This document shows, one piece after another, positions 16,001 to 54,400 of a stretch of DNA of 64,000 bases. The position numbers and the translations under genes are program-made. Every line of letters starts with the position of its first letter. Position 1 is the stretch's first letter. This DNA is from Ischnura elegans (lineage: Eukaryota; Arthropoda; Insecta; Odonata; Coenagrionidae): positions 41,459,812-41,523,811 of the forward strand of contig NC_060259.1 in NCBI RefSeq assembly GCF_921293095.1, in the 5' to 3' direction. The notes under the pieces are model-generated. The model saw only the letters and a program-made list of their open reading frames with translations. It was not told where the DNA came from and searched no databases.

Positions 16001-19000
16001 CACAGGGGAGAATGACACCTCGGTAGCTTAACTGGCTGAAGCACTTAGCCGGAAATCGAGGGATCCGGGTTCGAATCCCAGTCAAGGCGAATGATTTTTC
16101 CTCTGTGGATTTTTCGCAGAAATTGTTTGTGATGGTTTTATTCTTCTTATTCTTGGTGTTGAGTTGATTTTCTTTGTTATGTTTAAAGGACTCACTATTT
16201 TGACCTGATTGTGTTTAGAATGCCCATGTCTGTAAATTTTAAATTTTTGGGGGGGAATGGATGTAATGTAACATTCCAGATCCTACTATGCACCCGAGAA
16301 AATAATGGAAACGCTGACCAGAGGAGTTAGTATGCTGGGCAGTCGGTGTGTGTACACAAATGAAGCAAGAATAAAGGGTGATTGTTGCCGACATGAGTTC
16401 TTTCCTTTTTCTGTGCGATTTTCCCGGATGTAAGGGGGGACTGTCGCCTGCCTCATTTCCTCTAGTTTCCATTCCATCCAAAGTCAGCGATTACTAATTT
16501 CCTTTTTCTTTCCTTTTTCTGTGCAATTTTCCCGATCAATCCCCGGGCGATGACAACGAGAGGGTCTTGGTGACCTACACAGTTACATAATGAATTTGTG
16601 CATGCATGACATGTCGTTTGATGACTTCAACATAGCACAACCAGCAAGCATCCTAAAAGCTATATGGCAGGGAGACCATTTAGTATCCCCTTAGCTAGAA
16701 ATATATTCAACCAAAAAAATATTCCCTATGATTGATAAGAATTTCCATTCCAAAATGGACCACAGTCTAATTGCTATAAATTTATATAAAAAATAACTAT
16801 GAACAGCCAAAAATAATACTAACTGCTAGCTAAAGGAGCTTAATTTAACCAACAATTAGCCTTTTAATTGTTAGCTAAGAGTAGTGCAGTGAGCCATTAG
16901 CTATCATTTTAAACTTAACATGACAATATTATCTACATCCATAAAAACTGTACATACATACAGAAAATCTTTGAATCAAAAAAGATATAAGACTGACAAG
17001 ATATTTATGAGATAAAATGATGATTACAAATAATTCTATCAAATTAAGCCATTCACCACACTATCAAAGCAAGTTTCTTCACAAGCAGATCAAATCAAGA
17101 TGCCACAAGACCAGCTCACACCGATTCATTCATCAACTGCATCCCATATGCACTAAGGACATGGGCAAACAATGACTACACAGAGCACTAACATAGAAAT
17201 CTATTGGGGGTGTTATTTCAAATAGAGAACTAAATAATGTTAAGGAGATGTTAACATTCTGAATAAAACATTAGATGCATTCAATCACTTCAGACAAATA
17301 CAAGCATTAGTCCCACCACTTATAAAAAAATACAATTATTAATTTACCCCAAGAGACTTAGGATGCCCCGAAGACCAGGAAATATCAGGTACACGGATTG
17401 GTGCCTGCGGCATTAGAGCTGGAACCAGCATGCTATTCCCTGGCAAATAGCTGTGACTCATCCTACTATCTAGGTGGTTCCTCATCAGTCCATGAGGTTT
17501 GCACGACAAAATAGGGGGCCTTAGCTCTGATTTCACCATATGGTTATGGGCCGTATCAACAGTCAACATTTGCAACACTCCATCACTAGCCTTGGAAACA
17601 GGGACAAGAGACCCTGCATGGAAACCACTGGGATGAGATGAAAATGAAGGCTGAAAAAGGAGAAATTTCAAGAATTTGAAAAATAACAGGACATTTCAAA
17701 AATTGAAGACCCAAGTAAGTCATTACAACTTAGAATTTATCAACCATTTAGCAATGTGGTTACATTTGCAACTTGATAATAATGTGTGCAAGAATATAAA
17801 ACCAGCAATGAGTAATTTGAAAATTTCAAAAAAATTTTATAACCATGAAAAAATAACTTTTGCAATTTTTGACAACATTTTAAAACTTTTTTGTAATACC
17901 CATGAAAACATTATAGAGAGAAGTTTGAGTAATGCATTTCATTAATACTATGATGTATAGTAAAATGCGGCTGCTCAAGAGTTACAAGAAAAAGTAAACC
18001 CAAGAAAATAAAATAAACCATTTACCTTTAAATGAGATGGTATTCCTTCTACATTATTGTTCCACTTCAGAGTTTTCAATGGTGTTAGTGCCACATAGGG
18101 TGAGGGCGCCAATGAGGGAGAGGGAGCAATGATAGGGGAATAATGAGAGCTCTTCACAACAATGGGCAAAATCCTCTTTGAAGTTTTAATTTTTGATCTC
18201 GATCTATGAGATCGACTCCTTCTATGCCTTCTCCTATGTCTAACTTTAAGTTCTGATGCAGCAGCCAGAACAGCCCTGGAGTTCCTTTTGAACAAAAGAA
18301 GGTTTGTAGTACCAACAAGCTGCAACCGCAGCCCAGATTTAATGGGAACTGTCCTGTGGCCAGATTTTGACTGTTTTACACTATCTACATAATGTGAGCT
18401 GGAACTCCGTGAAGATTTCACTGATGGCAGCTTTGCATTCACAGTATTACTTAACTTGGCAATAACATCTTGGGAGTTGTATTGCTTGCTGTGATTTTTA
18501 CTAGAACTGGAATGCTTATTGATCTTTTCAGCTTCCACCTTCAATAATTTGGAATTACTGGGAGGCCTTATCTGAGGTGGCTCTTGATGATGCTCCGCTT
18601 TCACAACACTAACTGATGTTGATTCCGGAGTAAATACTTTCTGTGGGGGTCCAACTCCGTGTCCAAAGTCTGCCACAATACTAGCTGTAGAAACATGCTT
18701 CTTGTTCTTTGGTTTAACATCACATTCTTTAATATTGTTCTTAATAATTGGAGTAGTTTTAGATGATTCTTCCCCTTTGCTGTGCCTAAGGTCTGTAGAA
18801 AAAAAAAGATTTCAAATGCTAGTCTCACATGCTATACAAACCAGCAACTTTTCTTTATATTCATCATGAGATAGTAAAAATAAACTTTTAAACTCAAGAA
18901 CCAAGATGATATTCACAGCAACAACATCAAGACAAACATTACGCATTAACCTTTCAGCCACCCCAAGGGAAGTTCAAATCACAAATTTCATTAAAATTAC

Positions 19001-22000: not shown

Positions 22001-25000
22001 CGGCAAGAGATAAGACCCACCGGTGGGTCACGCCATGCAAACTGAAGTCTGCCCGTGACCCACAGGTGGCTCCCATCACTGTCTGCACCAGGCAACGCAG
22101 ATTCAGGTCTACAGTAAATGTGTTAAAACAAAATAACTACCGCTATAACAATATGATTAATACTCCTACAGAGGCAGATATAATTAGCCATATATCTTTC
22201 ATACATATAATTAATAGTGCATTGTGCATATCCTACAAAAACTACCAAATCCCGGTCCTAAGAGGGGCTTGCGAAAAATATATAAATACAAAAAAAAATT
22301 AAAAAGCACAGCTTTTCTGGACAGGAATATCACATACACTATGCGGTGAAAACACTAAACCTTAAATGCAGCAACTGCTGTGAAATTTCTATTTTTCTGA
22401 TACAAATGTTTTAATAGATTTATAAACTGTTATCAGGATTAACCCTTTAACTGCCACCGGGCTGACATATCAGCCCATGCTGGTTGAGCGAAAACTGCCA
22501 GGGGCCGATATTAATAGTGCATTGTGCATATCCTACAAAAACTACCAAATCCCGGTCCTAAGAAGGGCTTGCGAGAAATATATGAATACAAAAAAAATTA
22601 AAAAGCACAGCTTTTCTGGACAGGAATATCACATACACCATGCGGTGAAAACACTAAACCTTAAATGCAGCATTGCTGGTTGAGCGAAAACTGCCAGGGG
22701 CCGATTTATTGGCCCGAATTATTTCACTTTTTTCGTGATTGTGGCCTTTTCAACGGCTGTAATTTATGTAAACCCCCATAATGTATCTATGGTTACAAGA
22801 TGTAAATATATCTTGGGAATTGGGAAAAAATTTAGACTTATTAAACAAAATTAAGTAGCTGAAAAATTTTTAAATCTGAAATGTTGCTAATTTCGGAAAA
22901 TAGCCGTGGCAGTCTTCATACATCCCACCTAAAATGGAATGGCAGTATAAGGGTTAAATTAGTTGTGGAAACTAACCAGGAAAATATGCCTTAGCATATT
23001 GTGTGTTTTAATTTAATAATTTAACATATTGTGTAAGCTTCTATGATGACCATGACCATGACCAAACCCATATTTCAAAATTAAATGAATACATCAGCAA
23101 TGGGAGACATACCTAACTCATGGCACACACAGAGTCATAATATTTAGGCCACTTTCTCAGGAGAAAATAAATAAAAATTTGAAGTTTTTTTACAGCTCAT
23201 ATACATTTACACAAAGTAAATTTGGGATGAAGATTTGAAGTCATTAATATGCAAGAGTTAACTAGTCGGATACATTTGACTTTTCACATAGGGGCAGTGA
23301 AACTTGAATGTTACACCACAGGAAAACTAAGAAACTTTTAGAACTCCACTTTCCACAAATTGATGTAATGCAATCGCAGATTGCTTTCTCTGGAACACAG
23401 AAGATAGAACGCTTTACAAAACATAACAATTCTACAAAACTTCCATTGACTAACTATGCTCGGATCTAAAAATTACAATGCGGTCATTCACTTGGACCCA
23501 AAATCCCATTTCATTTAAAGAATACGGTAGTTGGAAGGAAAATATAGATTACAATGAAAAAATAATCTTCTCCATTCAACCATTCCTTAGAAGTTAAAAA
23601 TGAAGAATGAGATAACTGCCACCCACTTTTAATGAGCTGGTTACATCATTCCAGCACCACTTCATTCATTCATCCCAGGAAAATCAATCATTAAGGCAGG
23701 AATCACTCACAAGAGTGTAATCAATAAAGAACCACGTGATTCTGATTAGTGAAATGTATTGCAGGGAAGATGCAGTTATTCACATGGCACTACTCAATGA
23801 CATCATCATCATATCTGGGTAATGAATAAGGCAATTGCTTTTTGCCAATTATAGCCTGATATGTATGCAAAAAATCGAAAAATTGGAAAAAAATGGATCT
23901 TTCAAATTTTTAAACCATTACACAACTTGTACAAAAAAGGTAGTGCACACACTTTTAAAGAATTAATTTCCTTCAAAGAATTCAGCAGATGGATGGGAAA
24001 GATAAGTAGCATTTTTTTAAATCTTCATATTCATGAGTTGACAATACGAAAACTTGAAAGTTGCTGCCCACTAACCATTTACTTTATCTTTCATTTAATC
24101 ATTGAGAGTGAATTTTTCATAGGCTGATGGCATTGCTCCCAAGAGTGTAAACACAGCAAACTTCCAAAGGCCAAAGACAGGCTGAGGAGCAATTGAGAGG
24201 ATATAAAGCACTCGGCACGAGTTTGTTATATCATTAACTTATCTACAAAAGGGTTAAGGCAGTCAAATTTTATCTGGGAACAGAGCAAGAGGTAAGTAGG
24301 TGACCGATCAAAAAAACAGGAAGAAATGGGTGTCTTTATTTTTCAAACACTATAATCTATTCACTTTATATTTACCGGGTGAGATTTCTTGAGAGCCGGG
24401 ACAATCCTGGAGGGCTTTGCCGATGGGGGAGGGGTCGTACCGAGAGGAGGAGTAAACTTAACCTTGCCAAGTGTACATAGCCACCTTGTTGTGTGTGAGT
24501 CATGGTTGGCCAGTGCTGAGACAATATACCTACTCATTTTGAAGGTGTTGAGGATAATCCTTTCACAGAAGCCCATGACATTGTCAACTACCATGCTGAA
24601 TGAGGCACCATTAGTGAAAGGCATACTAAGAGACATACAAGGAGAACGTTTGAGGTTTGGCAACACTGCTCCACAAGCACATGCACGATTAAACTCGACG
24701 GAGGTCTGAGAGTGACTGACTGAAGTCACCCCTATTGTTTGCCGATTGGCAAAGGGAAAGTCACATGTCGAGAAACTTTCCCTCCTCTCAACTCCACTTG
24801 CTTGAGCCACAAAAGCTCACCCGCAATGATAAAATTAATAGAGTATACAACAATCTATCTAAATAAAAAATTAGTCAACTTGGCTATTCTGCAGCCTGAG
24901 TTCACCCACTTTCTATTACACCTATTAAATATCTCCAGAGAGACTGTGCACAAAGATTGATCACTATTTCTAAGAACAGGCCGACTACTATTTTTATATA

Positions 25001-28000
25001 AATACGGTACATATAAATAAGGCCATGAATATGCACATAAATAACTAATTAATTAGACTTCCTTGATTTCATATACATACAGTACATGATGGCATGTAAT
25101 ATGTACTTACCATTCACTTTCTCAACATGACTTGTCAGGGGGAACATTATTAAAAAAGTGTATGCCAAAGAAAGATCCATACACATTCTGACTGGAGCTA
25201 AAGAAACATCTACAACAATGATTCTGCTATGTAAGAGTTAGGCCCGTATCATAAAAGTCCCCTCGAAGTTGAAGTTGAGGATGGCCTCGTTTGAAGCCGG
25301 CCTAGCTCGACGAGGAGATCCCTCGACCGCGTCGTATCATATAAGTCTCCTCCAGCTCGGCTCATAGGAGGAGGGGTTTGAGCCAGCGGAAATGACGCAT
25401 TGTTGAGGACGATGTTTCTGGTTTCAGAGTTGACAGTCTTCCAGCATTGTTCCATGTTCATTTTTTCGAATCGTATTTGCGCAGACATGCGCAGTAGCGA
25501 TATACCGAATGCGGCCGGGGATATACCCGCCAATATCAACAATAGAAACAGAAATGGCTAACAAGGGGAATACACGACCTGACGACTGGGGTGGCCGATT
25601 GAGCTCAAATTTTCTGAATCGGTAGATCACGGCTATCAACTAAATATGCCGAAGCAAGGCGACGCACTTCTCAAAACTTTTCGAGAAAAAAGCAATTAAA
25701 AATCGTAAAAAACGGGTCTAAGGTATATATCCGGTATTTTCTTACATTTACTTAAAGACAGCGGTGGCCCAGTGGTAACGGTGGTTGACTGTGGATGTAA
25801 AAGGATGGCGAATTCGATCCTCACTCACGGTCCTTTTTTTTAATTTTATTATTCAAGGTTTTTATTGTTTGCATTTTTAAATATTGTTTTCTTACCTTCG
25901 TTAGCTCAATGAAAATATTTTTAATTTATTTTTTTAAGCAATAATAAGTGCTGAAAGGGGTAGGAAATGAAGCAAGGGCTATATAATAGCCTTACCTAGG
26001 GCGATTTTGTCTTTATTTGTTCTCTCTAGGTATATTAGGGTATTGCGAGTGTAAATTGTCTTCTGTAGGGGTGGGGTCAGAATAATGACATTTAAATTAT
26101 TAATTGGGAGGGAAATCTACCCTATCGACGGATTATGCTTTCATTGGGAGTTTAATTGAGAAAATTATTCGTAAGCATGTATGACACGTGTATACCGTCA
26201 AAAATACAGGGCAGTCGATGCGGCGGAGAAATGAACACGTTCTCCGTTTGTTCGAGTAGTATCCCGAAACTTACAAACGAAGAATTTAGTAAAATAAAAG
26301 AAGTACCGTGAGTGAGGATCGAACTCCCAATCCTTACATCCACAGTCAACCACCGTTACCACTGGGCCACCGCTGTTTTGAAGTAAACGTAAGGAAATAC
26401 CGGATATATACCGTAGACCCGTTTTTTAAGATTTTAATTGCTTTTTTCTCGAAAAGTTTTGAGAAGTGCGTCGTCTTGCTTCGGCATATTTAATTGATAG
26501 CCGTGATCTGCCGAATCAGAAAATTTGAGCTCAATCGGCCACCCGAAGGTCGTGTATTCCCCTTGTAAGTCGGAGCGCATGGCCAGGCAGGAGCAGGAAA
26601 TTTTGTGCGATTTGGTGGTCAAGTACAAGGACGTAATTGAGTGTAAGCGCTCGGATGCGGAGTCCGTTTTAAGCAAGGCAAGATGCTGGCACAAAATAAC
26701 GGAAGAGTTTAATAATCGTGGATGAATAATCATCATCTTCTCGCAATGGCGGAAGTCACCTCAAACGCTTTGAGCCGACAATAATCTAACCTCAAAGTTT
26801 GAGCTGAGGCTGGCCTCAAAATTCGACGTTTTTGAGGTTGAGGTCGGTTTTATGATATCGTATCTCCTCCTCCTGACGACAATGAGGTGGAGGCCGGCTT
26901 CGAGGGGACTTTTATGATACGGGCCTTAGTATTGTGATGAGGACTGCTCTCTTCCATTTCCCTACTCCAGTAGAAATCATACAGTAAAGAAGCTGCAAAA
27001 AACACATGGTTTTCCACATGCATACAATCATTACTCTTATTTTTCCAGACCATGAGGAAATCTTTGTATATGCCCCATTCTTCACAAATCTCAAAATACA
27101 AATATTATACTTCATACTGGAGGCATACAATACGCAATTTTACTGTGTCAATTGCAGAAAAATCAAACTGAGTTGCAGAGAAAAATCTGAGAGATTTTTT
27201 CATTTTCCATATCAGAAAGTTTTATGGTGCTTTCTCAACAAACCACTATATCATTTTAGTCAGGTTTCCAGGTTACTTGTTTCTTAATTTTTGGGTGAGA
27301 TAATCCAATACAGCTTAAGTATAGAGGTTCTCATTCATCGTCATCAGGGAATCCATTCATATCATTCCCTAATGACAAGCCTTGAAAATTTAGCCCCAAT
27401 TGATAGTAAAACTTGGCTAGAAACTCGAGAAAACTTTATTTCACGTAAATGCTTCACATTTACATTGGCACAGCGAGAGGTTTATCCCACATTATAAACA
27501 AACACGGCTCATTATGCAATGCATGCAACTTGGGTTTTGCTTGATACAATATTGTAATATACTCTTTTCCTTCAAGTTTCCAACATCTGATGTACTATAT
27601 AGTCTCAAAATTAGGACAGATGCCTAGCCAATATATTTGCTGCACTTGCACTAATGCCATTTCTGAATTGCACAGGATGCTACTTTGGAAGTTTGCAATA
27701 TTACACACTTTTTGTGATTACACACTATGACTTCAAAGATTGGATGTTTACAATGATTTCCTCACCGAAAATTGTCAACATGAAAAAAATTGTGGACTAC
27801 TTATTCTCTCAATAATTTATATTTTAATCAATTTGTGCATTTTGGGCACAATCTGAACTAACTATCATTTTATCCGGTGTGAATTTAGGAACTGTTCAGC
27901 ATTTCGCCCATTCTTCCTTACCGCGGGGAGCTACTTTTTTCGGCTCCGGATGTGTCGCACACCCAGCTAGATCAGTTCATCACAATCGTAAGTTAGAGCA

Positions 28001-31000
28001 CAATTGTGATACAGTGTTGCATTCTGCAGGATAACCGTATTCCTCGATTCCTTGCATGCAGTTCAGCTGGCGAGAGTTGTCCAATGTCAGCACAATAGGA
28101 GGGGCGGAAAACCCTGCGCCAGCATTGTTTGCAGCCAATCGCTGTCCCCCAAATGCAACTCACACCCTTGCCTAGTCCTAGTCATACAATGTTGTAACAT
28201 GCATATGGAGCACCGAAATAAGCATGATCCACCAAAAAAAGCCCTTTCTTCGAATCAACAAAACAAGTGATTCTCCCTTCGCATCCTTCACTCTCCCTTC
28301 ACGCCTTCCAGCTCCTTTCTTCACAGAACCCTTTTGTTTACAAGTGACGTAAGCATTTCCCTTTCTTACCTGGCTACCTTGCCCCCTACCTCGACCCAGA
28401 CCATTCTGCCAGTCATCGGACAACTCTCGGTGGCTGGACTGTAGGTTTATCAACTTACGAACAAGGTCTTGGAACGCATCTAGTTCATATATCAAGGACT
28501 TACTGCATTCTGGAAGATATCAACCCTCACTTGCATCATGCTGCATTCTTCTATTCAAAAACTGAAACGAATTTTCCTATTTATATATATTTGTCCGTAA
28601 TTTAACTGTGTTCAATAATAGTTTTTTTTTATGATTCCTAAAAGAAACATTCATACGAACCTCGTCGTTACAAACCTCTGGTTTTTCGGTCCCGTGAACT
28701 TCTTAATAATGAGAGTCTACTGTATATACAATCAAAATTCTTTTGAAAATGTAACTAATGTTTTTCTAACTTGTGCCTTAACTTTGGACACAGAAACAAA
28801 ATAACTTGTAACCTTAATTGCAGTCAAATACAAGTAAAATATGATTTAAAATTAAAATTGACAGATCAAACAAAAGAGGTACGAAAGCATAATAAATAAT
28901 TTACAATGAAGAATAAGCAATGCTAAGTGTAGCTGGCGGCTAGCCTCTCGTCGCACAGAGCCCCGAGTCCACAAGTTGGAAGAGCTTGGAGGTGGGGGCG
29001 TGAAGGCCCTTTGCAAAGGATGGGGAGAACGGCCTTGGCCCCATGTAAAATGGTACATAATAGAGGGTAGTTGAGTTTGGGCCTGAAAATGAGTGTGTCG
29101 TGATTCCTCTCTGCCCTTCTCCCAAGGGAACAGCTGCCACATTGGCGCAGTTTGGTAGGATTGTCCTTCAATCTGGGGTTTTAGCATGCAGATAAACGGC
29201 AACTATCATGAGTATGGTGATGCCAGAGAAGTTTGATGGGAGATTGGGAGGACTGGGTCTTCCAATTTGAGGCTGTAGCCAACTTAAGTGCCCTAGGGAG
29301 CAGAGAATGATCTACCTTAGAATATGTTTCACAGGCAATGCTCTCACCGCATACTGCAATCTTCCTGAGGAATGTAGGAAGAGTTATCCAAGACGCTGGA
29401 GGCTGGGGCTGCATTTTCACCCAAAGTAAGCGAGTGAGAGGGAAAAGAACCGGTTAGTCTAAAGCATATGGAATCCCAGGGAAGAGATCGCTACCTTCAC
29501 AAAGGACCTGGGGAGCCTTGCTCGGCGGGTGTATCCCGCATGGCCGGAGGAGGTGAGAAATGCCGTGGTGCACAACCACTTCTTGGAAAGACTCGATGGG
29601 AGCATTAGGCTATGGGTCAAGCAAGCAAGACCATCGAGCTTTGAGATGCAATTGGTGTGGCAATGGAGAAGCAATCCATATCACCAAGTCACATACCAGA
29701 GAAGACAACTTGCTGGCACCAGCAAGTATCGGCAAAGAGCCGCGAGAAGTCAGTCAGAGAAAGAGGGTGCAATTTTGATGATAAAGTGGAGGTCACCTTA
29801 AAACAAAATTCAGACACGTTGACGGAGGTTATGGGGTTCTTGTGGGCAAAAGCTATCTCAGGTGGTGAAGCTTGGGGTCTGGCAGTTAATTTGTGGAGGT
29901 CAACTGCTGGTGCGAACCATAGTTTTTGGTTGTTGTTGGATGTGCGGCGAGATTGGGCATCTTAGAGCCCAATGTCCTCAGCCTTCCTCCAAGGGAAACG
30001 GGGCCAAGGGAAGAGACCGAAATGGTGGTAACTTCCTCAGCCGGCATTGGAGGAAGAGCCAGAAATGAGAGCAGCGAGGCTGAGGCATCTCAGCTTCTTC
30101 ATTTGTGAGATGCAGACTCAGTGAAGGAGAACGTCCGCTGGGGATGTTCTCGGATGGAAATGTGGACAATATGGTCGGAATCAGTGCCTCTTGTGCGTGA
30201 TATTGCAGTAGGAATGTATATCGAGATTCTAATCAACACTGGTGCAGCCATGTCTTTGATATCAAAGACATGGTGCTGTACCGAAAAGCCAGGGGACATT
30301 CAATGTGATGAGCTGGAACTTGTCATGGAAAATGGTTCATATTCTCACGAGAGGAGAATTTGTGATTTGCAATGGAGAAGATTTTGTTCATGAATTGGTT
30401 ATTGACCCTCGTTTAATGAAAGGTTGTCTCTTGGGTGCAGATTTTCTGAAAAAGCATCAATGTGATGCGTCTTTCTCACGGAATTGCCTCCTCTTTTGTG
30501 AGAGAAGTGTGTGTTTCGGGCCAGGTGTAAAAATTGGAGAATTAGTGAGTGCAGTGACTCTTCATGACAATGTTTTTCTCCCTCGTGGCCATAAAATAAT
30601 CTAGGGAGTGCTTGATAAATATTGATACGACCCTCTGGGGGAAGTTAACTCTAGATCCAAACCAAAGAGTATCACAGAAGTACGGAGTGTACGGTACTCG
30701 AATTTTATTTCCAATGAAAGATGACTAACAAGGGGAGACCACGAAAGTTGCTCCGCCTTTTTCAATGCCGTATTTTTTATGGCCTTCGGAATGGTGAACA
30801 CATCCCTGAACTAGTAGTGGTTCCGTTGAATGGGCCTTAGTTTGGCTGTAATTAATTAATTTTCATGCGGTACTTTTCACAAGCCGCTTATAGTTTCATG
30901 ATATCGCACCCTTCGCCAGGTGGGTCAGGTGGGGTAGTGGTTAGCGTTTACGACTACCACCCGGGGTACCAGGGTTCAAGCCTCCGTGATGTCTTTTTGT

Positions 31001-34000
31001 TTTCTTGTCTCCATTGTGATCAAACGGCGTCAACTTTTTCATTAATTTTAATTGCGACAAGCATAGACATGAGACTACTTTTTTATCACCATAATGACGT
31101 TTAGGTATTTAAGCAGTGTCATTTCAAACACGGAGATACGACGACTACACTAGCAAGGGTTGGTGTGAGCCAAATTGTTAATTTCTTCATTGCTTATACT
31201 GATCAACTTCCACATTAAAAATGGAAACCACTCTTGCAAGAGCACATGGCATTATAGGCTCGCGGCGACCAACAACATGCGTACAGACATAATTAATAAG
31301 AACACAAAACGAATATAAAATGCCATATCTCTCGAACACTTGTAATTCGCTTTACTCCAAAGGGAGTTTACTTACACAGTACCTATGTGCTAAAAGAACC
31401 ATTCCGAAATATAATTTCCATTAATAAATAGGATGAAATAAAAGTTTATGACCCTGGACCGGACGTGGTGGCATATAAAATACGTCAATCTTCGAAAGCC
31501 AAGGATTTCAACATCGTACGTACATTCTGGGTTAGAATGGTCTCGTGTATTCCTACAATGTACTTTGACTGTCTATATTGCGAGTTTTCAAAGTTCGAGG
31601 TATTGTAGCTAAATTTTTTTAGATCAGCAAGAGGAACCCGTCACACGTGGCGTATAAATTACGCCGGGCGACCGGCCGTATACCACCTTTGTACCTTTAT
31701 ATCTGTATCACCTATAAATGTACAAGATTTTACTAATTTCTACAAATAAAGATTAATTTTAACAAAAATCGAGTATTATCATATATGCACATAACATGGG
31801 AAAAGTACGCCATTCGCCCGGTTGTGAAGAAATAACAGTCGCGCCCGCTAGAGGGTTAAAAGCAACAATTACACCAAATGTGTCTTGTGCTCGCCGCTTC
31901 CCAAAATCTTCCGTAGCCCTTCCAATATAATAACAAGATATGCACCAACAAATGTCATTTCTTCCAAAAAAAAAGCCACTGCTTTAGCCCCCCATTAATC
32001 TTTCGTTATGTTTTTGAGTAGAAAGTGGAGCCGTCACTTCTCCGCGTTGAAAATGACACTGCTTAAATACCTAAACGTCATTATGGTGATAAAAAAGTAG
32101 TCTCATGTCTATGCTTGTCGCAATTAAAATTAACGAAAAAGTTGATGCCGTGTGATCACAATGGAGACAAGAAAACAAAAAGCCATCACGGAGGCTTGAA
32201 CCCTGGTACCCCGGGTGGTAGTCGTAAACGCTAACCACTACCCCACCTGACCCTCCTGGCGATGGGTGTGATATCATGAAACTATAAGCGGCTTGTGAAA
32301 AGTACCGCATGAAAATTAATTAATTACAGCCAAACTAAGGCCCATTCAACGGAACCACTACTAGTTCAGGGATGTGTTCACCATTCCGAAGCCCATAAAA
32401 AATACGGCATTGAAAAAGGCGGAGCAACTTTCGTGGTCTCCCCTTGTAAGTGCCGATGATATTATTCAATCCCTCAGCCGACCCGGTTACAATGTATAAA
32501 AATATCAAAGTGGGCGTGGTCTTTGAGTGCATGGAACAAAGAGTGGAAGGAAATTACGCCCCTGTTTCCTGCGTTGAAAGTGCAAACTTTAACCCCCGTA
32601 ACCTCTTTTTCAGACGTGGACAGTGCAGAAATAAGTGACACAGAAAATTAGGAAATCAAAGTACATAGTGCTGAATGAGTTTTTGAATGTATGCTCTTGA
32701 GGACTGTACAACTTAGGCCCCATGAGCATCCTTAAACATCAGATAGAGACGAGAGGTGTGTCCCCCATTCATCAACCTCCAAGGAGAATGCCCATTTATA
32801 AGAGTGAGGAAGTGCGGGGCCCTATTACGGAGTTGATGAGGGGCAATATTACCAAGGAATCATCATCTCTGTGGAGTTCACCGAAAGTGCTGGTGAGGGA
32901 GGGGTCCGCACGGTTTTGTGACGATTATAGGCATCCGAATGTAGTGACGCTTACCTCCTCCCATGTATGGAAGACATTCTAGACACAATATCCAGTGCCT
33001 AACCTTTTCAACAATAGACATGGCATCAGGGTACTGGCAGTGCAAAGTCATGGAAAGTGACAGGGAGAATACTCCCTTTATCATTGGTGACAGTCTATAC
33101 CAATTTAAAATGTTGCCTTTTGTGTAGTGCAATGAAACCAGTACCTTCCAAAGACTAATGGACCTAGTGCTTGCAGGTGCCCTGTGGAAGTCTTGTTTGG
33201 TGTACTTAGATGATATCATTATTTTCAGTAGTGATTTTGGGAGCACATAGGAAGGTTAATAGATGTGTTGATGTGTGTGGACGTGAAGAGAACTTTTGGC
33301 GTCGAGGCATTTGGCGTAGGATTTGATGAGTCACTATAGACAATATTTGTTGGGTAAACATTTTGAGGTGTGCACTGACCACAATTCACAGCAATGGCTA
33401 CGATCATTTCAAGAGCCAGAGGGACAAGTCGCTTGATGGCTTGAGTAGCTGTCGGAATATGATTTATCAGTGGTGCATTGGCCGGGTAACACACACAGGA
33501 ATGCTGAATGATTATGTAGCATGTAAGCAACGCGGTAGGAGCAATGATAAACATGAAGTTGTGGAGATCATCGCTGTTTTAGAGGCTCCAATTAAAAGTG
33601 TGAGAGCAAGGCAGAGGAAGGACCCCGTGCTGAGAAGTGTAGTGGATGCACTCGAGGCCGGAATTCGGCCACCTGAAGGAGAGAGGAGGGATGACTGTCT
33701 GGGGGCAGAAGTGTTGTGGACACAAATGGGATAAGCTTGTGTTTGAGGATGGGGTTCTCTTTCGAATGAAGGAGGGAGACAGACGAGATGCCAACTGTCT
33801 ACAGATAATTGTGCCAACGCTTTGTCCAGATACATTAAAGATGTGGAAGTGTGGTGCCTCACGTGCGAAGGTTGTTCGCATCGGAAAGCCCCACCCCATC
33901 AGCTAAGAGCACCATTGGGTCACTGCCTTACCGGAGGACTGATGGAAGAATTTCCGTTGACATTTTAGGAGCACTTCCACAAACAAAGACAGGTAATAAA

Positions 34001-37000
34001 TATATATTTTGGTGGTCGCCGACAAGTTCACCAAGTGGATCGAGGCGTACGCCATGAGAAATCAAGAGGCAGAACCAGTGGTGCATCAAATTAAGGGTTT
34101 TGTGTATAGGTGGGGAGTGCCTCGGGAAATACACTGGGATCAAGGATGCCAATTTGAATCCCACCTCTTCCAAGAGATGTGAAAATTGATGGGGGTAGTA
34201 AAAACAATAACATCCCCCTCCACCAGCAGTCTGATATCCAGGTAGAGCTCTTTAACAGAACTTAATCAGCAATGCTGAGCCAGTGGACAGAGAATGAAGT
34301 TGAATGGGATGATCATTTAAATTCCATCATATTGGCCTATCGTTTGGCCAAACATAGCAGCACAGGATTCACACCCTGTTTCCTTATGTTTGGAAGGGAA
34401 GTGCACCTCCCAATTGAGTTGGAGTGGGGGGTCCCTGATGAGCAGATAGGGGTAGGTCAGCAGAGAGAAGGCAACTACGTAAGATGTTTACAAGAGGGCC
34501 AGGAGAAAGCCCATGATCTCACTTGACAGAGGCTGGGATCGGCTCACTTCCGACAAAAAGAACAATATGACCACCAGTGTCACGGTGCACCCTTTGAGGA
34601 AGGGGGGAGGGTGTGGCTCCACGTACCAGCCACAAAAAGGGGCAAATGCAGGAAGTTTCATCGCAACTGGGTTTGCCCCTACCCAGGCATTTTGGGACTC
34701 TCCAATGTCACCTATAGGGTGAGAAACACTGATAATCCTCAACGTCACGTAGTGGTGCATTTTAACCTCTTTACGAAGTGGGAGGAAAGCCAGAAGAATA
34801 TCTGGGCAAGGAATATGAGACTATGGATGGAGTGGAAGTAAAAAAAGCTGGGCTGAGGGAAGCCGAGACAGTATCGCACAGAGCCCCGAAGGTGGAGGAG
34901 CTTGGGGGTGGGGCCGTGAAGGCCCTCTACAAAGAGATGGGGTGAAGGGCCTTGACCCCATGTAAAATGGCACATAATAAAGGTCAGTTGAGTTTGGACC
35001 TGAAACTGTGTATGTCATGATTCCTCCCTACCCTTCTCCCAAGCGAACACTACACTATGCAATTAGATTCAATAAGAAATTAAATTTTCCTAAAATAACG
35101 AGTCAACTGGTTTAATTGAATTTAAGTACTTTCAGGATAATTTTACTGCATATTCCTGTGCCCAAGACACAAGGTCTCAGACAGGTGACAGTGTGACGGC
35201 TCTTTAGATTTGGGAATCAAATTGCCAAGATATAAAGAGCCTTCACACTATTGATGAGATTCCCTCACTTTTCTCTTATATCCCTGACCCATACCCAATT
35301 TTTCCCCCATCTCCTGTGCTTTCACAATCAGAGATTGGATATGTAGCAAGGTTTTCCGGTTGACCTATGCATCGATTCATCTTCGAGGCGACAGTTTCAC
35401 CGGCGTTGCAGCTGGCATCTTCAGGTTTGAAGCAACGCCTGCGAAACTTGTCATGAAGATGAATCGACACGGAGGTCAACCCGAAAACCTTGCTACGCAT
35501 GCTGCACCACTCCATGAAAGTCTCCATCAACAAATCCCAGGTAGGCTATGAAACCAAGTTAGGCAGTGATGATAAGATATCATAGGGCCATAACGAGGGA
35601 GATGGTAAAACCACGTGAGCAGGATATGAACAGAACTAAGCTGAGCAAAAGGGGCAGAAAATATAGGTTTTTCTCCTCTCTCAAAATTGAATAAAAATAT
35701 GTAGCATGAAGTTTCCAGGTTTTAATTCTCAGGATTCTTCTCAAATTATAAAAATAGTGAGTCAACTATTTCCATATTTCTTTAATTTGATTCAGGTCCT
35801 GCATTACAGTATTAGTACTAAATAGTGTTTCTCCACATAAAAACCGTACCCATTTGGAATCTCAGACACGAAAAAATCAGAAGTTAAGCGATAATTTAAG
35901 TGATAGCCTATTAATCATCCCATGAGACTGTATACTGAGAGGACCTTTCTTATGCCATCATTGTTACTAACTGCTTAAGCCATTCAGATCTCAACAAAGT
36001 TACTCCCAAGTACCCTGTCAAATTTGCGCACATTTGCTGTGGAGTCAGCTTATTTATCTGATTGGAGAAAAATTCCAGTTGAGTAGTATACCAGGACTAG
36101 CCACGGTGATAACTTACATGGGAGTCACCTGCAATGCACAATTGTGCGAAAGATCCACAGAGAAAAAAATCCTCCGCCTTGACCGGGATTCAAACCCAGA
36201 TCCTCCGATTTTCGGTCGAGTGCTTTAGCCAGTTAAGCTACCGAGGCATCATTCTTCCCTGTGGATATTTTTGGACACTACCGGACAAGGTGTTGTTGGA
36301 CTGCTGAGCATATGATGCCAAAAACAGTCCAAATTGTGCACACAGCGCCACAGCCGGAGAGCAGGCCCAGACATAGAACACATAGAGGTGTTTGCTCTTG
36401 ACTAGCTTTAATTATACCGGGACTAGCCACGGTGATAACTTATACGGGAGTCACCCGTATCTGCAGCCCGGATAAACCACAGCCGGATAATCGGGAGTCT
36501 GCTGTACTTGTATGTAGCAAACATTTTTTGAGAACCCTGTTTCATTCTTAGCGTACACACTTCCGGAAAGTTATGATGACTCTGGAGCAATATAAGATTA
36601 ACATTGATTTTTTACTCCATATATGTACTCACCTATTTAGCTCACAGGAATCCGAATGGTCCCCTGCAGAGCTTTCCCGAAACAATGAACGAGGTTGCAT
36701 GTGCTATGAATTATGTAGGCTTAAATACTCAATGTGTAGATTATCAATTTCATATAAGACCCACAAGAAATAAAAATATCGTGAAGATTTTATACTGATA
36801 TTTTTAGGTTGGGCACTCATACTCTCTGCGGAAAACACAAAAATGGCATCTTCAAATCCACTGACTGAACTTGAGCATTAAAGATGGAGGCAATTTCTGC
36901 TTTTGCCCTGTGAAAACCTTATCCAATTCTACAATTCACTAAACTAATTTTCATAAATCTAATCTCAGGCCAATACCTAACACAACAGAGAATACACCTC

Positions 37001-40000
37001 CTTTCAGGCCTTAGTTCTACGTATTCAGTTAATAAAACTTAACGGATGATGTATTAATGAAAGTTGACATGTGTTTCCATCCAATTTCTCAAGCTATCCA
37101 CAGAAGGTGCGGAGCTCGGGCATGAAGTGTACCATTAATTTGATGAATATAATGAAAATAATTGAGGGTAGAACAGAAATAATGGATGTAAATAAATTAC
37201 TGCTTAAGATGGTGTCTTCCATTAATAGCAACCCATTACAACATGAACTTGCAGTAGAAAATTATTTCCCTCAACTCGCACAGCTGTATGAAAAGGAGTA
37301 TTCAGGGAAACGCCCTGGAATATCACGGAAAGTAATGCAGTAAAATCTTCATATAACGAATTCAATAGGACCAGGAAAGTGGAGACTTTGCCGCAAGGGG
37401 GTTCCCTATAGGAAAGTGAAATAGAGCAGACTCCCGATTATCCGGCTGCGGTTTATCCGGGTAGCGGATTATTCATGCATGATTTTCACTCTCGCTCAAT
37501 TTTTTCCACGATCTTAAAAAAAATAAAATAAAATCGAACGCAAAATCATCGGAATTACTGTTTCAATGCGAGGATACACCGGGCTTATTATTTCCGTTAG
37601 AATCCCCTTAGTAAAACGGAAGCGATCGTGCGCTAGCTGCATACAGGGGAGTACCGTGTTCCTCCCTTTCTAAGCCTCGCAGTGCGCGACTGCGCTCTAT
37701 GATCACGGATACGCGTCCCGCAGCAGTTGCAACCTGGGCAACTTGTGCGAGACACGACTACGTGGCGTGGTCCCTGTCAGTGTAGTTTCCGACGTCGAGC
37801 AGTGGTTTTGGAGCATTCGTGCATACCACTTTTCTGTATCCATGATCACACAGCCACGGATGTGTGGTTTTCAAAACCAGGCCTTACATGGAGCGTTAAT
37901 AATACTAGTGCAACCATGTGTCGCCGCTAAAGATATCGTGAACTGGCAAAAAAAGCTCTCATTGAGTCCGGGAGGCACTCTTAAATAACAGAATACCTGC
38001 ATGAATTATTATATATTGTTTGTTATAGGTAATTAAGAACATTGCAAGACATTTAAGTGAAAGTGTGGGTTATCCGAGTTTTCCGATTATTCGTGCCGTC
38101 TCTCCCCATCATTAGCCCGGATAATCGGGAGTGTACTGTATTGGTTGTGTTGCTGCAGGGTGATTAAGAGTTCATCTAGATCGAAGAGGTGAGTTACAAA
38201 TACAGGAGCTGCGCTGAACTCATGCTAAGATGCTTTTTGAAGGAATGAAAAAATTCATTCCCGGTCACAAATAACCATGCCCATAACATATGATGCCCAT
38301 TGTGAGACTGATTGGCTCACAAATGGATAAGAATTCCCGACCACTTCGAGAAGACTTGGAGAACAGAAATACTGCGTGGAGGTTGGGGACTAGAAGTGAA
38401 TTGGAGGAAAATTCCAAAAACCCTGACCTGCCTCACCCTTTAATGTACTGTACTGTAAAATTGTCCAAATAGCAAGAGTATCCAGGTTTCAAATCATGAT
38501 TGTTGAGAACAGTTCTGAGAACATATCAAGGGATTGTGCTTAAGAAGTACGTGTTCTTCACATAGCAAATCTGCATCAGTCAGCAAAGCAAAGCTTCAGG
38601 CTAGATTTTGGCTCGTAGATGATTAACAGCATTCTATGTCATTTCTAACTAACAGCCAATTTGACCTACCACCAAGTACCCAGACCACATCCTGTAAGTC
38701 GAAGAGTACCTGTATTTGGATTACATGAAAACGATAACTATCAACTTTTACTATTATTTAAAGTTATCTACATCTATAGTTTAATATGTTCCTTCTTTTC
38801 ATTCTTAACCAGAAAATAAAAACTTGGTGCTCCTTTAACACTATTGGCTAATCAATATTCATTTGTTTCACTCATGGCAGCTACTAATTTAAAAAATATG
38901 CAGACAATATAATACATTGAATAAAGGAAATATTAAATAATTTCTATTCCTGTCCCTTGGTTGATCCTTCATTTCCTTTTGGCAGAAGATTGTCACTTAA
39001 TGATGTAAAATGACAATAACACAACCACATTCATCATATCCTCAATTAACTATTTTTTTGATTATTCAGGAGCCGCCCCACATGCTTTAGTACAGACAAT
39101 CATGATTTGACAGAGTTAAAATGATGAAAAAGTTGTTTTAAATTTCTAACAGCTGATACTGAATACCAAAAAATCGTTAAAAAAAACTAAAATATAAGAA
39201 TAGACTGTTATGACCATTGAGTTATGTCTTCTTGAGAACCTTTTTTGGATCCAACCATCCTTTTTAAATACACCTAATGCCTGGTCTACAATGAATGAAA
39301 GCTAAGAACAAGGCCACAAGAAATTTCTATTAGCAACCTAAATCTAATTATGGGAGGCATTAGCCACAACATGGTAGCAGCAGATGGAAACAGTCAAATT
39401 CCAAATTAATGCCTCAGTACTGTGATGTTTTAATTTGAATTTTTCATGAGAAATTTTAAAGGCTGTTTTTCAAACTACTTTTGTTCAACTCCTCAATGAC
39501 TTTATAGTATGCTTTCGATAACTCTACTCCACCAATGTTTTAAACCAGATTGAGTAACTTGAAGCATAACTATTTTCAGTAATACCTCCTTGAAAACTTC
39601 TTGAAAAAAAGGAAATGTTCTTCACCCTTCGGCACTAGTTACTGCCAAGCTTTAACAATAATGAATAATAAATGTTGAAATATTTGAATGGCACTAAATA
39701 CTTTCATTTAATTTTCTCTCTACTGTCGATTTATACGAGCCATGGCTTACACAAAGTTTGCACTGCTTGAATACCTGACTATAGTAATTTGGATTATAAG
39801 TAGCATCCATGGCTGGGATGACAAGATACTCCACTGACACCAGTCACAGTAACAACATACTCTTGATTGGCAAGATGTAACCCACAAGCAGTAAGAATAG
39901 GACTTGACCATCATTTTATGATCAACACCCATTGTAAACCATGTATAGCTCTCATGAACAAAAGCAAACGATGCTGGAGACAACACCTCAGAAAAAATCC

Positions 40001-51486: not shown

Positions 51487-54400
51487 CTGCAAGAAGGGAA
51501 AGACATTTAGCAACAGATACTTGGGCTGCTATACTGACAGAGAGTACGATCCAGCTTAAAAAGGGTGAAAGTCACTATTTTCAGGATTGTCATGACCAAT
51601 TCACAATTTGGTACATATCCTGAATATAAATCACTGCTGAAATTGCATCATATTTTACATTAAGCAATCCTGATACCCCAGTTCTAAGACCAAGCTATCA
51701 GAATTGCTCAACAAGTAATACGAGAGTCTCAGTCAGGGGTGATTGGGGGCCCTCTGCTAGACCTAATGATGGGGCCCTTCTTGCCAAGGAATTCGGGGAT
51801 CCTATCCAGGAAAATCTTAGGAAATTTCATGCTCTGAAACTGATTTTAAAAGCTGTATGAAAGTTACAAAATAGCAATTTTTAAGAAAAATATGTCACGG
51901 TAGTACGTATATTTTGTGGTCTTCATTTCGATCATACGGCAACTAGTATTTTATTAATTTTAATTGCAGCAAGCATAGCCATGGGAGAAATTTTTTTTAT
52001 GGCATTCGGAATGGTGGTTCAATGGTGGTTCCATTGAATGGGCCTTAGTTTGGCTGTAATTAATTAACTTTCATGCAGTACTTTTGACAAGCCCCATTAA
52101 ATTCCAAAATAGCGCAGCTCTTACAGATGGGTTAGTAGGTGCAGTGGTTAGCATCGTCAAATCTCACCCAGGGGTCCATGGATCGGGTCTTCCTGATGGT
52201 CGTACATTTTTTAGTCTTCATTTTGATCATACGGCAATAAGTATTTCATTCATTTTAATTGCAGCAAGCATAAGCTATGCCAAGCTAGGATCCCTGGGTG
52301 AGAGCAGACGACACTTCCCACTACACCAATTGACCCATCTGTATAGATGCACTATTTTGGAATTATATAAGGCCTGTTAAAAGTACTGCATGAATATTAA
52401 TTAATTACATCCAAACTAAGGCCCATTCAATGGAACCACTACCAGTTCAGAGATGTGTTCACCATTCGAAATGCCATAAAAAATATGGCATTGAAAAAGG
52501 TGGAGCGAGGTATGTGACCTCTCCCTGTTAGCATGTTGTAAATAAAGTAGAGATGGGTCGAATAGCAGATTTCTCGATTTCGAATATCGAATTCGAATAT
52601 TAAATCATTGCTCGAATATTCGAATACCTCGAATTTCGAATACTAAATGATGAATGCTGGAATGTTTGACTTGGTTGCCTATGCAGCAGGCAACACAAGA
52701 TTTTGGGGAGTAATTTTGATTTCCTTTAAATGATTCGAACAGGAATTTAGCTGATTAATGAATATTTTAATTTTATGGAAACAATTGGGCATATAATTAA
52801 TTCAACAAACATCGCTTTACCCCCACTCCTGCTGCCAAGTACCAGCTGACAATCTGAGGCATTTTGCAAAATACAAGCTCTTTTCCACCGGATTTTCTTC
52901 AATTATTTTCAGTCCATCTTTGGGAGTTCTCACGAAATAAGAAGATGAATTGGAATAGCTATCAGGGAGAAACCAAATATTCTGAGAAAATATCCCTTAG
53001 TGTGGGACTGTAACAATAAAGATTTATAGCACCACTCATAAATTGTAACTTGATATATGTTTTCGGAAAAAAATACCGCATCAACTTCAGAGAAGCTCTG
53101 CTGCTCATATCGAGTTTCGCCAGAATGCTAAGTCTCAGTCGTATTTTGACATTTATTTCTTTGCGTAAATGCTTAAATAAACTCAGAAATACGTCGTGTT
53201 TGGACTTGCTCTTTTTGAAATTTCGCGCACATTACTAATATTTCAATTCAATAAAGGTGTAACAAAAATTGACGAAAGTCATTTTTAGACACCTTTTGTG
53301 CTAATAGATGACTCATGCAGCGGTTGACCTCCACAGAAATGGGGAACTTCCAAGCTGGTAGGAAAAAAAAGGTCAGTGGGGGAAAAAAGGAGGGCCCGAA
53401 GCACGTTTCTATTGTTCTCGAGTAACTTGGTATTTTTTCGAAGCTAAGGTCTTCGTAATATGATACCTGGGCGAGCTGTGGCCTTTTTTTATTTCGAAGA
53501 AGAGGAAAGCCTCAGAGGAGGGGCTAGTGCTGAATGGAGAGGGATACCGTATCTTGGGAAATGCGCTAATGTAAGTATCCCACGGTACTCACACAGCAGT
53601 TGACCTCCAGAAATGGGGAACTTCGAAGCAGGTAGCTAGAAAAAGGTCAGTGGGCGAGAAAAGGGGGGAGGGCGTGAAACACGTTTTTATTGTTCTCGTA
53701 ACTCAATATTTTTTTCGAAGCAAGGGTCTTCGTAATGCGATCCCTGCGCGAGCTGGGACCTTTTGTTTGATTTCGGAGAAGAGGAAAGCGTCAGAGTGGG
53801 TGAGGCGAGTGCTGAATGGAGGGGGATAGCGGATCGTGGGAAATGCCCTAAGGTTGCTATCCCATGGCACTGAGGTTCTCCTGGTGGGGGGAATCGGGGA
53901 TTTTCGGATTTTTTCACCCGACCATTTTCGGTTCCCCTCGTCGAACTCTTTTCACCGCTAAAATCCACGAATTTGATGTAATTCGTCAACTTGCGTAAAA
54001 CGGCGCTGCGAGCACTAAATGACTACAGTTCTCTAAATTTTTCCGAGTCAACTACCAACGACGTGCGTGCGACAATGTATGACGCGAAATTCAAAGTATT
54101 CGAGGTGGTACTTTTCGCATAACTATTCGAAATCTCGAATATCGAATACTTTCTAGTATTCGAGGTATTCGAGTATTCGCGGATACTATTCGCACATCTC
54201 TAAAATAAAGTAATGAAAATGTATTATTTTCTAATTGCAAAAAAACTTTTGTTCAAGTAATAAGTCTTTTTTTATTACACCTTTAATATACGCTTCATGA
54301 TAAAGGCAAGCACTGTAGGGGACCTCCTATGTTCGGGGTCCTCTGTGATTGCCGACCAGCCGATCTGGCTAGAATGCCCCTGGTCGCAGTATCACAAGTT

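Follow-up and report, generated by a model that had tools for sequence, protein, structure and literature searches.

We analyzed a stretch of 64,000 nucleotides from the damselfly Ischnura elegans (contig NC_060259.1, positions 41,459,812 to 41,523,811; hereafter the window), in which two palindromic elements, copy 1 and copy 2, and a remnant, copy 3, had been noticed (cf. Table 1). Copies 1 and 2 are real fold-back DNA transposons and non-autonomous members of the Tc4/Tc5 type. They are placed there because of the CTNAG target, the TNA duplication, and the fold-back form, which are the marks of Tc4, and because of the Tc5-type domains of larger elements. Taken as a whole, it is very probable that we are dealing with non-autonomous fold-back Tc4/Tc5 transposons that have inherited a tRNA-derived motif in their arms and whose two arms, in family 2, exchange sequence with each other. 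In what follows, family 1 denotes elements of the copy 1 type and family 2 those of the copy 2 type, copy 3 being a decayed relative of the latter, while family 4 comprises a transposase-bearing element at C6:2511626-2519687 and its close copies. All genome searches were performed in the assembly G000 (1.72 Gb, 110 contigs).

Ends, arms, and insertion sites of the palindromes

Both copy 1 and copy 2 have the ends CAAGGGGA...TCCCCTTG, and the 12-mer CTWACAAGGGGA occurs without mismatch in the window only at their four ends. At two mismatches, 13 matches were found in the window versus 8.8 expected, and the single end of copy 3 is a match of this kind, so that the assignment of copy 3 is based on its arms and not on its end. 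The initial annotation, which gave common ends to two elements and a remnant, was therefore right for copies 1 and 2, whereas the one end of copy 3 is at a near-chance level. Its description of long inverted arms holds for all three: those of copy 2 measure 428 nt and are 96% complementary (428 of 859 nt per half), those of copy 1 measure about 290 nt, with blocks of 88-96% (about 290 of 502 nt per half in family 1), and those of copy 3 are 79-88% complementary. Unique centres of several hundred bases separate the arms of copies 1 and 2. The terminal inverted repeats (TIRs) of families 1 and 2 agree at 12 of the first 15 bases, with a one-base length difference after CACG; past the first ~20 bases, a comparison run with no shuffle control gave no convincing similarity (best local scores 10-11). 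The family 2-like fragment at 51912-51996, next to copy 3, suggests nested or rearranged copies.

The palindromes thus described have constant TIR ends, CAAGGGGARWMCACG, insert into ACTNAGT with duplication of TNA, and have empty sites. Copy 2 is one of a large family: a genome search with it gave 3489 candidates, 40 of which were scored, and 30 loci were fetched. Their ends were the same in 30 of 30, with single-base changes in some, and they lie in 28 distinct flank contexts, L052, L054, and L055 having one flank in common. The 3-base TNA duplication was equal on both sides in 27 of the 30 loci when compared by script; L058 becomes the 28th if a one-base deletion of the terminus is allowed, while L040 and L043 differ at N. 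In the 28 contexts, the right-hand copy of TNA had T in 28, A in 28, and a following G in 28, and a C preceded the left copy in 26. The insertion target is accordingly ACTNAGT, of which three bases are duplicated. Constant ends and a duplication of fixed length, two of the checks proposed with the initial annotation, were thus both found. Copy 2 itself probably arrived by its own transposition. In a query made of its joined flanks, these overlap by exactly the three duplicated bases; the search found no empty site elsewhere in the genome, both candidates (2/2) being the window itself, with its unique flanks.

The history of copy 1 is of another kind, as it is a passenger that occupies one fixed place inside a second transposon, a nesting that the initial annotation had overlooked. 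The search with copy 1 gave 591 candidates, and nearly all of the 40 scored were full length; 28 of these 40 were fetched, the window locus included. Apart from small differences, the sequences adjoining copy 1 were identical on both sides in all 28 loci. The carrier ends, GGCCCGTATCATAAAAGTCCCC, were likewise present in 28 of 28, with 28 distinct outer flanks, and the 3-base duplication of the carrier was equal in 19 of 28 (unequal in L007, L010, L012, L015, L016, L018, L019, L020, and L023). The TIR, the 3-base duplication, and a Myb-like open reading frame (ORF) suggest that the carrier is of the PIF/Harbinger kind. Copy 1 interrupts this ORF, and, judged by eye, the site free of copy 1 would read ATG GCT AAG TCG at the junction. 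We then searched with the flanks of copy 1 joined through one TAA, a query of 115 bases, and scored 40 of 219 candidates. All 40 matches cross the join at 96-97%; 39 cover the full 115 bases and one covers 113. The carrier thus exists without copy 1, and the insertion of copy 1 duplicated three bases.

Termini were also surveyed on their own. The family 2-type terminus had 135 forward and 106 reverse exact matches (241 in total), and the family 1-type terminus had 107 and 108 (215 in total) outside the carrier context, with 0 for the control in both surveys. Among the matches listed, facing pairs of termini at most 10 kb apart were picked by eye, and TNA agreed in 9 of 9 such pairs of the family 2 type (three of them being loci L048, L049, and L059) and in 19 of 19 of the family 1 type. 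Since these 19 pairs lie outside the carrier, family 1-type ends move independently of it.

Transposase-bearing relatives

The element at C6:2511626-2519687 (in parts, L067, L068, and L069) is bounded by a facing pair of termini 8.06 kb apart, with TCA on both sides. Its right arm is about 690 bp long; the inner piece of the left arm is 98.9% alike over 524 bases, and about 3.3 kb parts its outer 140 bp from the rest. This insert of the left arm lies at C6:2511765-2515053, and the ORFs tested from its L067 part were without a Pfam match. The transposase gene of the element is in pieces, which match HTH_Tnp_Tc5 above the cut-off (9.2e-5), Transp_Tc5_C below the cut-off (2.8e-4), and DDE_1 weakly (0.069). 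The protein is 33% identical (E ~1e-31) to a frame of 537 amino acids at C9:5836207, which matches Transp_Tc5_C above the cut-off. A protein search with the C6 transposase had 1042 candidates, and the 126 that were scored yielded 127 matches. Transposases at least 97% identical to it accounted for 10 matches in nine elements, and five of these matches have an unbroken frame of 545 amino acids; other transposase subfamilies lie at about 57, 50, and 47% identity. When the right arm of the C6 element served as the query (40 scored of 1345 candidates), facing arms were found to surround eight of the nine near-identical transposase copies, and the ninth element, at C3:131829812, had one arm among the 40 scored candidates. 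With the split C6 element set aside, the transposase elements between facing arms span 4.76 to 6.69 kb. Candidate motifs of a DDD triad, INTDQTG, IIDSWG, and CQPCD, were seen by eye in the transposase ORFs, the third in another frame. For family 1, a facing pair of termini 5.0 kb apart at C2:60493519-60498538 holds a transposase match (53%). A Tc5-type transposase with matching ends is therefore found in family 4 and, by position, in one family 1-type element. Elsewhere, at C8:15388896-15395580 (G000), facing arms enclose 6.7 kb with two oppositely oriented transposase copies, an interior that looks as if it were palindromic too.

Several results weigh against this link between the palindromes and a Tc5-type transposase. 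The C6 element is absent from the 27 above-cut-off matches of the Transp_Tc5_C profile in the genome (150 scored of 178 candidates), its transposase copy is broken by a frameshift, and among the transposase-bearing copies identified, none is of family 2 itself. Family 4 is a relative of family 2, with 80% identity in the outer arm. An origin of the palindromes as PIF/Harbinger miniature inverted-repeat transposable elements (MITEs), which was our first idea from the TNA duplication, would account for a 3-base duplication in a palindromic target and for the Harbinger-like carrier around copy 1. It was dropped and is now very improbable: the C6 element has Tc5-type domains between its CAAGGGGA termini, none of the 150 scored DDE_Tnp_4 matches (2144 candidates) fell inside C6:2511626-2519687, and the TIRs of the carrier differ.

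The A-box/B-box motif of the arms

Each arm of copies 1 and 2 contains an A box, a B box, and a T run, directed inward and about 200 bp inside. We scored this motif at 15 positions (with an A-box maximum of 6), requiring T4 or not, and compared the consensus arms of families 1 and 2 and the C6 arm of family 4 with 3000 shuffles each. The best motif of families 1, 2, and 4 scored 13 of 15 with T4 and started at arm positions 198, 202, and 201, respectively. Such a score with T4 was reached by 24, 70, and 91 of the 3000 shuffles, and the score together with the common position was reached by 0 of 3000, both for families 1 and 2 and for families 1 and 4. In Rfam, the right arm of copy 1 aligned over the whole tRNA model (20.6 bits), and the family 1 locus L009 reached 27.0 bits, at a cut-off of 29. 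The motif region of the 5.0-kb transposase-bearing family 1-type element on C2 aligns to that of family 1, but is diverged. The initial annotation had described an inward tRNA-like module in every intact arm, which stands for both arms of copies 1 and 2 and lacks support in copy 3, whose arms score 11 of 15, a value reached by 2590 and 2428 of 3000 shuffles and therefore not above chance. From the common termini, it had also argued for an architecture that is maintained, and family 4, a relative of family 2, and the diverged transposase-bearing relative of family 1 bear this out.

These observations led us to infer that the arm motif is an inherited, tRNA-derived promoter motif of putative activity, and the earlier suggestion of captured RNA polymerase III (Pol III) promoters fits the motifs as sequences. 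Other results weigh against such a reading. If T4 is not required, the scores of families 1, 2, and 4 are reached by 113, 190, and 269 of 3000 shuffles, and if a score of 11 suffices, 21 (families 1 and 2) and 37 (families 1 and 4) of 3000 shuffles agree in position as well. Among family 1 loci, a tRNA match at E≤1 was obtained in only 2 of 20, both below the cut-off; Rfam gave no tRNA match in copies 2 and 3, in L068, or in any arm of the 14 (of 30) family 2 loci that were scanned, and ARAGORN found no tRNA in any arm of 23 loci, its sole tRNA lying in the L059 flank. In folding, the copy 2 module does not surpass its shuffles (z 0.51). As for tRNA secondary structure, families 2 and 4 show none and family 1 attains at most 27.0 bits versus 29. 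The B box of family 4 is without the usual A after GTTCG, and that of the family 1-type relative is poorer. Between families, the identity of the module is 0.68 versus 0.79 for the outer arm, and that of the A-box block is 0.75 versus 0.80, yet above its neighbours (0.67, 0.55, and 0.65). In family 2, shared variants of the A box are few (0.011) relative to its private ones (0.0124, 9 events), as selection on the module might produce, but between families there is no conservation above that of the outer arm.

Much of this evidence would agree with chance, that is, with motifs that happened to match in the arms of one ancestor and that have neither tRNA ancestry nor a Pol III role. Each family taken alone is modestly above its shuffles, two of the three lack a tRNA fold, and a possible distant common ancestry of families 1 and 2 would make the like position less surprising. 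On the other hand, the starts at 198, 202, and 201 coincide with the score in none of the shuffles, and the right arm of copy 1 aligns over the whole tRNA model, that of L009 reaching 27.0 bits. We regard chance as a serious possibility, though the less probable one, and tRNA ancestry as the better reading of the motif.

The motif followed by a T run is also what would be seen if the palindromes were head-to-head pairs of short interspersed nuclear elements (SINEs) or one palindromic SINE spread by reverse transcription. Their ends, however, are constant TIRs with a TNA duplication, which refutes this for families 2 and 4, and the empty site of copy 1 is clean. A search with the family 4 module, which reached close relatives only and not family 2, so that diverged copies elsewhere were beyond its scope, gave 30 matches (30 of 30 candidates scored). 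All of them lie within arms, and 22 form 11 inward-facing pairs as judged by eye. Dispersed single copies, a 3' tail, and a duplication of variable length, as expected of SINEs, were not found in these data. A SINE that moves as a palindrome, one of the two options first put forward, is thereby contradicted, there being TIRs and no poly-A/T tail at the ends, and a SINE origin in either form is hardly conceivable. The other option, a DNA transposon family, is correct as far as the transposon is concerned, given the constant ends, the TNA duplication, the empty sites, and the linked transposase.

Likeness of the two arms and a hypervariable block in family 2

In family 2, the left and right arms of an element are more alike than arms taken from different elements. 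In every segment of columns 21 to 395, the within-element distance was 0.33 to 0.68 of the between-element distance, and 0 of 1000 permutations were as low. In columns 166-194, same-side arms of different elements differ by 0.289 versus 0.292 for cross-side arms, and since same-side arms are no closer than cross-side ones, new variants have reached both arms. The passengers of family 1 behave in the opposite manner, with 0.048 within elements versus 0.017 between left arms (columns 1-100). The simplest reading is an exchange between arms, by repair or conversion, in the source elements. One point weighs against it, namely that the permutation test takes the loci as unrelated and includes the three with the same flank. 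Subfamily structure could produce the likeness with no exchange at all, and there are clear subfamilies among the 30 loci, with L052, L054, and L055 on one flank; against this stand the equal same-side and cross-side distances in family 2 and the opposite pattern of the family 1 passengers. Subfamilies as the whole cause are unlikely, and an exchange between arms is preferred.

Diversity along the family 2 arm, calculated by column with CpG sites excluded, was 0.028 in the outer arm and 0.415 in columns 181-192; the A box had a value of 0.043, the B box one of 0.098, and the sequence further in one of 0.047. The hypervariable block of 12 bp thus stands directly before the motif, at arm positions 181-192, that is, at 30909-30920 of the window. 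Within it, the arms of one element differ at 0.175 of sites versus 0.43 between elements. With L054 and L055 excluded, shared variants amounted to 0.194 in the motif flank versus 0.014 in the outer arm, and private changes to 0.0061 per site (9 events) in the flank versus 0.0038 (28 events) for the outer arm. The module itself has an elevated rate of private changes (0.0128, 45 events). As the variants are shared rather than private, the block changes in source lineages and not in dead copies. Transcription-associated mutagenesis was considered as the cause of the block and dropped, private changes being little raised in the flank where shared variants are raised. The similarity of the arms, together with the hypervariable block, makes these elements a good system for studying the homogenisation of long palindromes.

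Features and other repeats of the window

The coordinates of the palindromes, their modules, and the carrier are collected in Table 1.

Table 1. Palindromic elements and associated features, in positions of the window
Feature	Position	Strand	Length	Description
Copy 1	25562..26565	.	1004 bp	Family 1, palindromic Tc4/Tc5-type; TAA at 25559-25561 and 26566-26568
Copy 1 left arm	25562..25848	+		Inverted match to 26287-26566, ~90%
Copy 1 right arm	26287..26565	-		Inverted match to left arm
Copy 1 left tRNA-like module	25761..25841	+		A box 25765-25775, B box 25811-25821, T run 25834-25841
Copy 1 right tRNA-like module	26304..26376	-		A box 26359-26369; Rfam tRNA 20.6 bits, cut-off 29
Carrier of copy 1	25241..26925	.	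1685 bp	Harbinger-like, non-autonomous; TIR GGCCCGTATCATAAAAGTCCCC; TTA at 25238-25240 and 26926-26928
Carrier ORF fragment	26567..26719	+		Myb_DNA-bind_5, E=6.4e-12; start-codon region interrupted by copy 1
Copy 2	30729..32446	.	1718 bp	Family 2, palindromic Tc4/Tc5-type; TAA at 30726-30728 and 32447-32449
Copy 2 left arm	30729..31151	+		From inverted-repeat comparison
Copy 2 right arm	32024..32446	-		From inverted-repeat comparison
Copy 2 left module	30920..31000	+		A box 30930-30940, B box 30973-30983; no tRNA match or fold
Copy 2 right module	32175..32255	-		A box 32235-32245, B box 32192-32202
Copy 3	51988..52527	.		Right terminus TCTCCCTG, then TTA at 52528-52530; left terminus missing
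Family 2-like inner-arm fragment	51912..51996	+		78% to 31000-31084; directly abuts copy 3

Other repeats are present in the window as well. A family with a tRNA core occurs at 36087-36455, 9361-9714, and 15903-16099; ARAGORN reports a tRNA of the Phe type at 36174 and one of the Ser type at 16016, Rfam gives 47 bits at 36175, and direct repeats TATACCRGGACTAGCCACGGTGATAACTT at 36087 and 36413 frame the first of these copies. A repeat of about 730 bp, found twice (7879-8606 and 37413-38142), has ends like CAGCAGACTCCCGATTATCCGG, and we take it to be possibly a pogo/Tigger-like MITE. A short, near-perfect hairpin at 14347-14463 has 48-nt arms that are 92% complementary and 21 nt apart, and a tandem duplication of about 300 bp, 95-99% alike, lies at 22210-22672. 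Around copy 2 (29463-33734), three ORFs were tested and matched 0 Pfam families; a Gypsy-like reading of this region is not claimed.

Discussion

The short palindromes are probably mobilised, in a cut-and-paste manner, by the Tc5-type transposase of the larger elements or by a close relative of it. Copy 1 would have entered a Harbinger-like element in a single event and been amplified as a passenger thereafter. The motif may descend from a tRNA gene or from a tRNA-derived promoter that a common ancestor gained in its arm and that was inherited with the arms, and the likeness of the two arms in family 2 would reflect repair or conversion between them. As far as its sequence suggests, Pol III might transcribe inward from the motif, or TFIIIC might bind to it, at each of the two ends, now or in the past. 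A further-reaching idea, which we hold to be quite unlikely, is that both terminal arms of the lineage retain a functional Pol III/TFIIIC promoter that serves its life cycle. If it were so, the promoter might open chromatin, bring the two ends together, or produce convergent arm RNAs that either feed silencing or evade it, and the block at arm positions 181-192, where transcription would be expected to start, might be a scar that this transcription has left in active source copies. Promoters of the internal Pol III type are characteristic of SINEs and tRNA genes. If a DNA transposon keeps a motif of this type at a fixed place in its arms, in several families and in relatives with a transposase, the regulatory layout would be unusual, and one could ask in a natural setting whether such a transposon benefits from TFIIIC sites. 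A study on a Harbinger-derived protein and 7SL reportedly names TFIIIC (PMC11893794).

The elements belong to a kind that is already known, the fold-back transposons of the Tc4/Tc5 group. A TNA duplication inside CTNAG is found in them and a Tc5-type transposase in elements with like ends, both of which are marks of this group of the Tc1/mariner superfamily. In Tc4 proper, the fold-back arms make up nearly the whole element. The damselfly elements of 1.0 and 1.7 kb differ in having centres of several hundred bases and the A-box/B-box motif in their arms; their CAAGGG ends presumably resemble the terminal sequence of the Caenorhabditis elegans Tc4. In their fold-back layout, CTNAG target, and TNA duplication, they are like Tc4 of C. 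elegans and its relatives in nematodes, arthropods, and tardigrades, features that have been reported for Tc4 (PMC11071193). The remark that no named family has this layout, made in the initial annotation, hence does not hold for the layout, target, and duplication, which had been reported for Tc4, and holds for the module: among the listed titles and abstracts of the open literature on tRNA and Pol III motifs in DNA transposons and on Tc4/Tc5, we found no DNA transposon with a tRNA-like module in its TIRs. The arm motif is accordingly a variant feature, for which that literature gave us no description.

Tc5 has a TNA target. The transposase-bearing elements are like it in the match to HTH_Tnp_Tc5 and the weak match to Transp_Tc5_C, and presumably unlike it in their arms of about 660-700 bp that contain the motif. 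With PIF/Harbinger MITEs, the palindromes have in common a 3-base duplication and a palindromic target, whereas TIR and transposase are different; judging from its TIR, duplication, and Myb-like ORF, it is the carrier of copy 1, and not the palindrome, to which the PIF/Harbinger likeness would belong. Finally, tRNA-derived SINEs likewise possess an A box, a B box, and a T run, but the palindromes are bounded by TIRs, duplicate TNA, have no 3' tail at their end, and are linked to a transposase, and the family 4 module was matched only in arms.

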